In this document: piece by piece, positions 56,494 through 57,911 of the stretch
Layout of the letters: each line of letters opens with the position of its first letter
How positions within the stretch are numbered: the stretch's first letter is position 1
Origin: Euzebyella saccharophila
GTDB taxonomy: Bacteria > Bacteroidota > Bacteroidia > Flavobacteriales > Flavobacteriaceae
Length of the DNA: 64,000 nucleotides
Reading direction: 5' to 3'
Assembly (NCBI RefSeq): GCF_014855495.1
Contig: NZ_JACYFJ010000002.1
Location: 434,001 to 498,000, forward strand
Position numbers and translations under genes: made by a program
The notes under the pieces: generated by a model
The model's input: only the letters and a program-made list of their open reading frames with translations
Told to the model about the DNA's origin: nothing
Database searches by the model: none

Positions 56494-57192
56494 TTAAAAT
56501 GCTTGGTAAACTATACCGGATATTATGGCCAGCCCAAAACTTAACAGGGTACCTATGAGGATGTATTCCGTTAATTTACGGTTATTACTTTCTTTTAAAT
56601 CATTGAACCTAAAGACCGATTTTGCTCCGATCAAAAGTCCAATGGCCTCCCACCTACCCATAATAATGAACATAAGAACAAAAAGGCGCTCAATGATGCC
56701 AATGTACTTTCCTGCGTTTGGCAGGGATTTATGGTCTAGTTCTATTTTATCGGACATGGCTTCCAACAGTTTTCCCATGATAATGGAAGAAGGAAAACTC
56801 ACAAAGACGATTGCTGTTACCAGACCCCAATCAATTTTAGAAAAGAGCATTGCTGTATGAGGCGACAAATTTTGGTAATAGACCACCATGTATATTACAA
56901 TTAAATGTAATACCTGGTCTATAAAAAAAGGCACACTTTTTAATTTAAAGTATGGTGTGGCGTATAATTTGGCAAGGTCTATCAAGTAATGGGAGAAGGT
57001 AATAATGGCTACTGGAAGTAAGTAATCTAAATCCCATAGTAATACCATTGAAATCAAAAAATGTACAAGTACATGAACATATAGGTATTTTGATTTTATT
57101 TTATTCGCCTCTTTGTGTATGACCCAACGACCGGGCTGCAATAAAAAATCCCCAATTAAATGGGCCAAGAACAATTTGGTAAACAAAATCAT
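56494..57192 (-). CDS. DUF3307 polytopic membrane protein, SatD partner
   Basis: A 232-residue protein with about six helices. His and Asp recur at helix ends: His11/Asp15 (FLAHLIGDFLLQ), His40/His44 (YVHVLVHF), His68/Asp72 (TFSHYLIDL) and Asp92/His96 (FIDQVLHL). Such buried His/Asp pairs recall membrane metal-dependent hydrolase families such as YdjM/DUF457. The C-terminal part (GKYIGIIERLFVLMFI ... IGLLIGAKSVFRF) is the conserved DUF3307 end. It begins 1 nt after the SatD gene, so the two form one unit. A metal-dependent activity on lipid or a diffusible molecule is a guess. Confidence 0.88.
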   Translation of the reverse strand: MILFTKLFLAHLIGDFLLQPGRWVIHKEANKIKSKYLYVHVLVHFLISMVLLWDLDYLLPVAIITFSHYLIDLAKLYATPYFKLKSVPFFIDQVLHLIVIYMVVYYQNLSPHTAMLFSKIDWGLVTAIVFVSFPSSIIMGKLLEAMSDKIELDHKSLPNAGKYIGIIERLFVLMFIIMGRWEAIGLLIGAKSVFRFNDLKESNNRKLTEYILIGTLLSFGLAIISGIVYQAF

Positions 57193-57193
57193 A

Positions 57194-57802
57194 TTAGTTC
57201 ACTTCTTTAAGATTCTCTCTATAAAACTCCAATAATTCTAACACTAAATCCAACCGCGCCCTTTTTTGTCTTTGGCTTACGGCCGATTGTTGAATACCTA
57301 AACGGTTTGCTATTTCTTGCTGAGATGCATCTGGATAATCTAGCGCCAAAACCACTATTTCTGCTGAAACCGGACTCCAATCATCCATAATATGCAACGC
57401 AAATTTGAGCATGAGGTTAAAAATACGGTCATGATTTTTGTTTCCCGTTGCAATACTCAAATTTATTTTATCCTCTTTTAGATGCTCAAATGTTCTGCCC
57501 GATCTTTGATATGCCGTTCCATTGGACTCACTTACTCCCTGACCTTGATAGTCTTCCCCGCCTAGACCTACTCCTATCCGGGCATCCAGTCCTTTTATTG
57601 TTTTTAACAAGGCCTTTATATATATAGCTTGCACCAGTGCTTCCTTGGCAGTTATTTTAAGTTGAAATTCATCTCCTCTGTACACTTCCCAATCATGGGG
57701 AGATTTACCTAATTTGGATAAATGCTTTTTTAATATCGGAAGCCATGTAGACGAGCTGTGATTTCCAGAACCTATGATATCTCCTGTTATTACCGCTACC
57801 AT
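57194..57802 (-). CDS. SatD family protein: palm-like domain plus C-terminal helix-turn-helix
   Basis: A 202-residue protein. The N-terminal part reads VAVITGDIIGS (Asp8), then VYRGDEFQLKI (Asp44, Glu45), then ARIGVGLGG; this order recalls the palm fold of GGDEF and class III nucleotide cyclases, where the two acidic sites hold metal. The tail (about 156-185, ASQQEIANRLGIQQSAVSQRQK) is a helix-turn-helix of the sigma-region-4/LuxR kind, so it likely binds DNA. The family name comes from an acid-tolerance locus of Streptococcus. It precedes the DUF3307 gene by 1 nt. A cluster of AAGCTA repeats upstream may be its own operator. Family call good; activity inferred. Confidence 0.85.
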   Translation of the reverse strand: MVAVITGDIIGSGNHSSSTWLPILKKHLSKLGKSPHDWEVYRGDEFQLKITAKEALVQAIYIKALLKTIKGLDARIGVGLGGEDYQGQGVSESNGTAYQRSGRTFEHLKEDKINLSIATGNKNHDRIFNLMLKFALHIMDDWSPVSAEIVVLALDYPDASQQEIANRLGIQQSAVSQRQKRARLDLVLELLEFYRENLKEVN

Positions 57803-57812
57803 TGTTATTAGT

Positions 57813-57898
57813 TTATAAGCTAATTTATTAAAATATTAACTAAAAAGCTAATAAATAAAAAAATAAGCTAAAAAGCTTATTTATTGAAATAGAAGCTA
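57813..57898. promoter_or_regulatory. Cluster of AAGCTA repeats (candidate operator) upstream of SatD
   Basis: AAGCTA occurs at 57817, 57845, 57865 and 57893, with AAGCTTA at 57873. Spacings are 28, 20 and 28 nt. The central two make an inverted repeat with 9-bp arms AAATAAGCT (57861-57869) / AGCTTATTT (57874-57882) and a 4-nt gap. The repeats fill the region between the SatD start and the 3' end of the methyltransferase gene, so they likely control SatD-DUF3307. Confidence 0.6.
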
Positions 57899-57911
57899 GT
57901 ATCCTTATAAA

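Follow-up and report, generated by a model that had tools for sequence, protein, structure and literature searches.

SatD, encoded by the first gene of a two-gene operon of Euzebyella saccharophila, is very probably the DNA-binding protein of a periodic array of inverted repeats that precedes its own gene, because the half-sites of such arrays covary with residues 173, 174 and 177 of its helix-turn-helix. The rest of the protein is a predicted palm domain, for which structural modelling gives good support to a fold like that of class III cyclases and GGDEF domains; its two invariant aspartates presumably bind metal.

In the window (the whole 64,000-nucleotide stretch analyzed), the ORF list and Pfam place satD at 57194-57802 on the minus strand (202 aa) and the gene for a DUF3307 membrane protein at 56494-57192 on the same strand (232 aa). 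The 1-nt gap between them is as the first-pass annotation had described it. SatD matched PF16264 (E 9.8e-8, 32.3 bits, above the gathering cutoff of 29) and its neighbor matched PF11750 (E 1.1e-29, 103.5 bits, gathering cutoff 23). Both are named families without an assigned function, and a search of the open literature found no link of SatD to a cyclase fold, an operator array or DUF3307.

Operator array and recognition helix

The candidate operator array (57807-57908, minus strand) consists of four 18-bp inverted repeats of the form ATWAGY-N6-RCTWAT with a period of exactly 28 bp. The copies lie at 57807-57824, 57835-57852, 57863-57880 and 57891-57908, the last being the farthest from satD and degenerate. 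Arrays with a period of 28 or 29 were found in 64/67 Flavobacteriaceae, at 69 of the 80 named loci and at 30 of 35 others, and they occur upstream of satD in Bacteroidota, Proteobacteria and Haloarchaea; none was found for two plasmid homologues (L190 and L195). Repeat copy number exceeded that of dinucleotide shuffles (mean 2.38 vs 1.05). In a scan of 116 whole loci, the stretch upstream of satD, 3% of the scanned DNA, held 310 of the 325 high-scoring positions, and a period of 28 or 29 was seen at 306 of these 310. A pattern search for a regulon in the E. saccharophila genome recovered perfect repeat matches solely upstream of satD, with the remaining matches at the control rate.

Half-sites are not conserved between species. 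Flavobacteriaceae use ATAAGC/ATTAGC, ATTACA, ATCACA, ATCGTT, ATCTGC or ATTCC, and more distant Bacteroidota use AACC or TTTCA types. Elsewhere we found TTAGCC (Vibrio), AACC (the E. coli plasmid pEC34A and Enterobacter), TTCGCC (a haloarchaeon) and GGCCGG (a viral-contig homologue).

The C-terminal helix-turn-helix of SatD (residues 144-202; 57197-57373, minus strand) had been proposed from the sequence, and both a Sigma70_r4 match (residues 147-184, E 3.7e-8) and the model helices at 144-201 agree with that assignment. The domain resembles YlxM/UPF0122, itself a streptococcal sat operon gene, and its profile matched the SPy1201 structure 1s7o (E 3.9e-5). The homologues examined share the two-domain layout of the window protein.

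We compared the predicted recognition helix (residues 172-181; 57260-57289, minus strand) with the operators of 112 non-redundant loci, with half-sites in a fixed register. Where residue 177 is Gln, the half-site is AAG or TAG (53/55 loci); Glu goes with a triplet beginning with C (15/15) and Arg with TAC (14/14), and Lys is found mostly with TCC/TCT or TAC half-sites. Across 56 independent nearest-relative pairs, column 177 ranked first among the 202 SatD columns for each specificity base (p values of 1.3e-7 for d6, 2.1e-6 for d5 and 2.4e-4 for d7), with columns 173, 168 and 174 just behind; for the whole triplet, columns 173 and 177 shared the first rank. On a tree of the palm alone, the Glu state switches seven times and the Arg/Lys-with-TAC state four times. 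This covariation lends strong, sequence-based support to the earlier suggestion that SatD binds DNA.

TAnnTTTG promoters are enriched upstream of satD (54/146 vs 23 expected from base shuffles). The exact motif is absent in the window, so an overlap of array and promoter can only be suggested there. Since the array sits in the promoter region, we infer repression and not activation: SatD most likely acts as a cooperative autorepressor, its helix-turn-helix occupying the tandem inverted repeats spaced 28-29 bp apart before its own operon. We hold the DNA-binding and autoregulatory part of this predicted model with high confidence.

Palm domain and membrane partner

Residues 1-120 of SatD (57443-57802, minus strand) are predicted to form a palm with the order beta-alpha-beta-beta-alpha-beta-alpha-beta, as judged from an AlphaFold2 model, Foldseek, VIA and a palm profile. 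The model, built on 53 homologues, reached a pLDDT of 96.6 and places helices and the helix-turn-helix after the palm. The top Foldseek match was Ma1120, an adenylyl cyclase of class III (prob 1.00, E 1e-3), with further matches to GGDEF domains, Cas10 and Panoptes mCpol. VIA-align matched GTP cyclohydrolase III (Z 9.5, rmsd 2.9, 108 residues), Rv1625c (Z 9.3, rmsd 2.6, 118 residues) and GGDEF (Z about 8.7), values that are only modestly over background. A palm-only sequence profile also placed Ma1120 (E 0.0011) and Rv1900c (E 0.0017) at the top of the PDB. The palm fold that the first-pass annotation had anticipated is thus what these predictions return.

That annotation had also pointed to acidic metal sites in two motifs, VAVITGDIIGS (Asp8) and RGDEFQ (Asp44-Glu45), which are indeed present, with Asp44 36 residues on from Asp8. 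Asp8 (codon at 57779-57781, minus strand), the presumed first metal ligand, aligns with the Asp of TDIEES in the Ma1120 alignment of this profile, Ser12 with its Ser, and GD44 with QGDGF; Asp44 (codon at 57671-57673, minus strand) is the presumed second ligand. Both aspartates are invariant in 66 Flavobacteriaceae, in 139 non-redundant homologues and in 39 very diverse ones. In the last set (Bacteroidota, Proteobacteria and one haloarchaeon), D8, S12, G43 and D44 are the sole invariant columns, and M1, Q47, R75 and G95 are nearly so. Position 45 is Glu in 76/139 and Ser in 58/139 of the non-redundant homologues. Glu45 is thus not conserved, and the proposed acidic pair of the second motif fails; Asp8 and Asp44 hold up.

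SatD is like the class III cyclases Ma1120, Rv1900c and Rv1625c in its predicted fold, in both metal aspartates and in the RIGxG motif that follows them. It is unlike them in being shorter, in having a sigma-r4/YlxM-like helix-turn-helix fused to it and in the transition-state Asn/Arg pair, which is not conserved in the helix after RIG across the 139 homologues (position 103, in that helix, is Arg in 57/139 and Glu in 53/139). On the predicted catalytic residues, its membership in the class III cyclase family is incomplete. The homologues also lack the GG(D/E)EF signature, the motif being RGD(E/S)FQ or LGDEFQ, and the GGDD motif of mCpol is absent, with GD alone conserved in the 39 diverse sequences.

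It is plausible that the putative active site makes or senses a nucleotide. With the Asn/Arg pair unconserved and GG(D/E)EF absent, the palm may merely bind a ligand, which brings in the main rival to the function that we propose below. Here SatD would be a ligand-responsive autoregulator without catalysis, whose degenerate cyclase palm binds a nucleotide or metal and alters affinity for the array, and DUF3307 would be a dose-tuned transporter, channel or membrane enzyme, with no toxin logic. The array and the helix covariation require DNA binding alone, and the unconserved Asn/Arg pair suits such a regulator. However, the invariance of the metal aspartates and Ser12 from bacteria to archaea exceeds what a simple sensor would need. 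We consider this rival possible, if somewhat doubtful.

The DUF3307 protein was modeled as all-helical (pLDDT 90). Comparison of the model with the PDB was of no use for naming a relative, as Foldseek gave E values of 1 or worse and VIA a top Z of 7.2; this result is not evidence against any family. Its N-terminal Pfam half (residues 1-119; 56836-57192, minus strand) carries four His/Asp or His/His pairs in i,i+4 spacing. These pairs (H11/D15, H40/H44, H68/D72 and D92/H96), picked out in the first reading of the sequence, do exist, and Flavobacteriaceae keep them almost without exception. The C-terminal membrane segment (residues 121-232; 56497-56832, minus strand; ER...AKS..RF.DL...EY.LIGTLLSF) is shared with short partners of roughly 105-145 aa in distant Bacteroidota and Alphaproteobacteria, which correspond to this segment; the 138-aa partner of Sphingomonas parapaucimobilis matched it at 97.2% in hhalign. 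Alignments thus identify the membrane segment, and not the His/Asp half, as the predicted conserved core of the SatD partner, and the His/Asp pairs are accessory in the wider family because they lie in the N-terminal half that many partners are missing. Plasmid-borne DUF3307 proteins (L196:2766-3788 and L194:2483-3481) have an extra charged insertion between the two halves. The only PADLOC match of DUF3307, to a type I specificity subunit (E 0.003), covered 25 residues and was judged to be chance.

Linkage, mobility and proposed function

SatD was found in 67/120 Flavobacteriaceae genomes, and the next same-strand gene encodes DUF3307 in 66 of the 67, most commonly with a 4-nt overlap. In the one exception (L015), a DUF3307 tail, IGTLLSFGLSILAGLAYVFLR, directly follows satD, and the DUF3307 body appears to have been deleted with satD retained. 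The pair is present at 79 of the 80 named loci, the exception being cut by a contig edge. From the other side, SatD lies directly upstream in 30/30 of the best DUF3307 matches in Bacteroidota. Neighbor conservation, which the first-pass annotation had set as a check, is therefore found from both directions. The unit occurs in Bacteroidota, Proteobacteria, Fusobacteriota (Fusobacterium) and Haloarchaea.

The unit is not mobile everywhere, since the locus is syntenic in most Maribacter-like genomes, with an upstream gene family common to 50/79. This vertical, syntenic locus fits housekeeping as well as defense, and its conservation in Flavobacteriaceae also agrees with a non-catalytic autoregulator. 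The family takes its name from the streptococcal sat operon ('secretion and acid tolerance'), an operon with ffh (streptococcal papers, including PMC11323703). A housekeeping regulator of membrane biogenesis or acid tolerance would account for that name, the ffh operon, the vertical inheritance in Flavobacteriaceae and the YlxM-like helix-turn-helix. Yet ffh linkage was not noticed at any locus examined, and the patchy distribution (67/120 genomes), the small plasmids and the defense islands speak against such a role, which we regard as very improbable.

Among plasmids, pEC34A of E. coli (3,770 bp; NC_019077.1; L194:1792-3481) carries the pair, as do near-identical Klebsiella plasmids; Rop, MobA and a single short hypothetical gene make up the rest of their annotation. 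The mobilizable pEC34A is nearly unchanged between E. coli and K. pneumoniae, and the array-bearing unit is its sole annotated cargo. Plasmids of Vibrio, Salinivibrio, Enterobacter, Pseudomonas, Sphingomonas and haloarchaea also carry the pair. The pEC34A unit was not found in complete E. coli genomes by blastn. Tblastn detected no relative of SatD or DUF3307 in phage records, and only two distant homologues were found in viral contigs. In a viral-contig homologue (L192:1798-2624), SatD-DUF3307 has two divergently oriented genes upstream of it, one encoding a helix-turn-helix protein and one resembling an ImmA/IrrE-type metallopeptidase; both gene types also precede the pair in Sphingomonas.

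Plasmid carriage and the combination of a tandem array, a DNA-binding protein and a membrane protein could also suggest a DNA-tethering or partition cassette, with the array centromere-like, SatD as adaptor and DUF3307 as membrane anchor. However, many units are chromosomal single copies, an NTPase motor is absent, pEC34A is a small Rop/MobA plasmid for which a partition need is not expected, and the invariant cyclase metal aspartates would be left unexplained. This is hardly probable.

A defense-island context was seen in two cases only. In Sphingomonas insulae, SatD-DUF3307 is flanked by Gabija and a ThsB-like TIR on one side and by Pycsar on the other, the plasmid island (L234:1410-12685) comprising GajA-GajB, the ThsB-like TIR, HTH and ImmA/IrrE, SatD-DUF3307, PycTM, E2 and PycC. 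In Agrobacterium, a short-partner version of the unit lies with HerA-DUF4297, HipA and AbiEii genes. A DUF4365-annotated gene adjoins the unit in Enterobacter kobei (L196:5629-7189) and in Agrobacterium (L231:4862-6652). PADLOC models gave no match to the window SatD or the homologues tested.

The neighborhood of Pycsar and Gabija in Sphingomonas, the palm fold, the metal aspartates and the operon of enzyme and membrane partner would all be consistent with activation as in Pycsar/CBASS, where SatD is silent until infection or stress and its cyclic nucleotide then switches the membrane effector on. Against this, profile comparison did not relate the partner to the PycTM beside it, the PADLOC models miss SatD, and the essentiality of S. 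pyogenes satD suits an antidote and not an activator. We find activation of this kind improbable. Comparison of SatD with PycC and of DUF3307 with PycTM by hhalign gave no similarity, which is weak evidence as the templates were single sequences.

In S. pyogenes, satD is accessory (178/249 genomes) and was the single accessory gene essential in all strains tested (PMC11323703). In Panoptes, c-di-AMP from the constitutive activity of a minimal palm enzyme keeps a toxic membrane effector off, a system that its authors describe as toxin-antitoxin-like (PMC12657230). Because satD is dispensable for the species and essential where present, and Panoptes provides a precedent, we tentatively favor an antidote or guard reading, by analogy: SatD-DUF3307 could well be a self-contained, self-regulated module of toxin-antidote type, with SatD as antidote or guard and the membrane protein as effector. 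The downstream membrane protein would be potentially harmful, and SatD would hold it off through repression of the operon and through a nucleotide bound or made by the palm. The effector would be set free once SatD or the nucleotide signal is lost, for instance when a phage attacks or nucleotides run short. The logic would be that of Panoptes (mCpol/2TM-beta), with palm and membrane partner replaced by others and a DNA-binding arm added.

The S. pyogenes essentiality and the retention of satD in L015, where the DUF3307 body appears to be lost, form an antidote-like signature. Mobility and defense context (the sole cargo of pEC34A and the two islands) count for the toxin-antidote reading, and the sole-cargo plasmids and the accessory-yet-essential satD count against a non-catalytic autoregulator. 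One draft genome counts against an antidote: in L056 (G051:C65:6716-7311), satD breaks off directly behind its RGDS motif, the apparent cause being a 5-bp tandem duplication that may be a mutation or an assembly error, and DUF3307 is intact. In S. mutans, viable non-polar satD mutants were reportedly obtained by Kremer in 2001 in work on the sat operon, which speaks against a universal antidote. An extended version, in which the pair is an unrecognized, widespread immune or addiction system, seems unlikely to us. In it, a DNA-bound cyclase-fold antidote would hold off a multi-pass membrane toxin with an inhibitory nucleotide, the array would set the dose, and nucleotide loss would kill the cell.

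Relation to known systems and significance

Of the known systems, Panoptes (mCpol OptS with 2TM-beta OptE) is like the unit in being a two-gene operon of a minimal palm and a membrane protein and, as a proposal by analogy for SatD, in its antidote logic. SatD differs from mCpol in its helix-turn-helix arm, in its operator array and in lacking GGDD, the semi-conserved active site of mCpol (PMC12657230). Its partner is predicted to be all-helical and multi-pass, without a match to a solved structure. With Pycsar/CBASS the unit shares a cyclase-like protein beside a membrane protein, and Pycsar physically adjoins it in Sphingomonas; however, PycC models miss SatD, and the logic proposed for SatD is inverted. 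Type II toxin-antitoxin systems are similar in their antidote-first operon and conserved linkage (66/67 and 30/30 here), in an antidote that controls its own operon through tandem palindromes (predicted for SatD from the array and covariation) and in the accessory-yet-essential behavior of S. pyogenes satD. They differ in that the proposed antidote here has an enzyme-like palm and the putative toxin is a multi-pass membrane protein.

What is new here is the operator array upstream of satD, and the combination is a distinct variant among two-gene signaling or addiction modules. An uncharacterized pair becomes a testable system of a cyclase-fold transcription factor, an identifiable operator array and an obligate membrane partner, and pEC34A offers a ready laboratory model of it. 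SatD and its arrays also form a natural DNA-recognition code that is legible from sequence. The 'acid tolerance' name is old and probably misleading. If the antidote logic is true, the unit would represent a new branch beside Panoptes of defense by inhibitory signaling, and it would explain why satD essentiality is confined to the S. pyogenes strains that carry satD.
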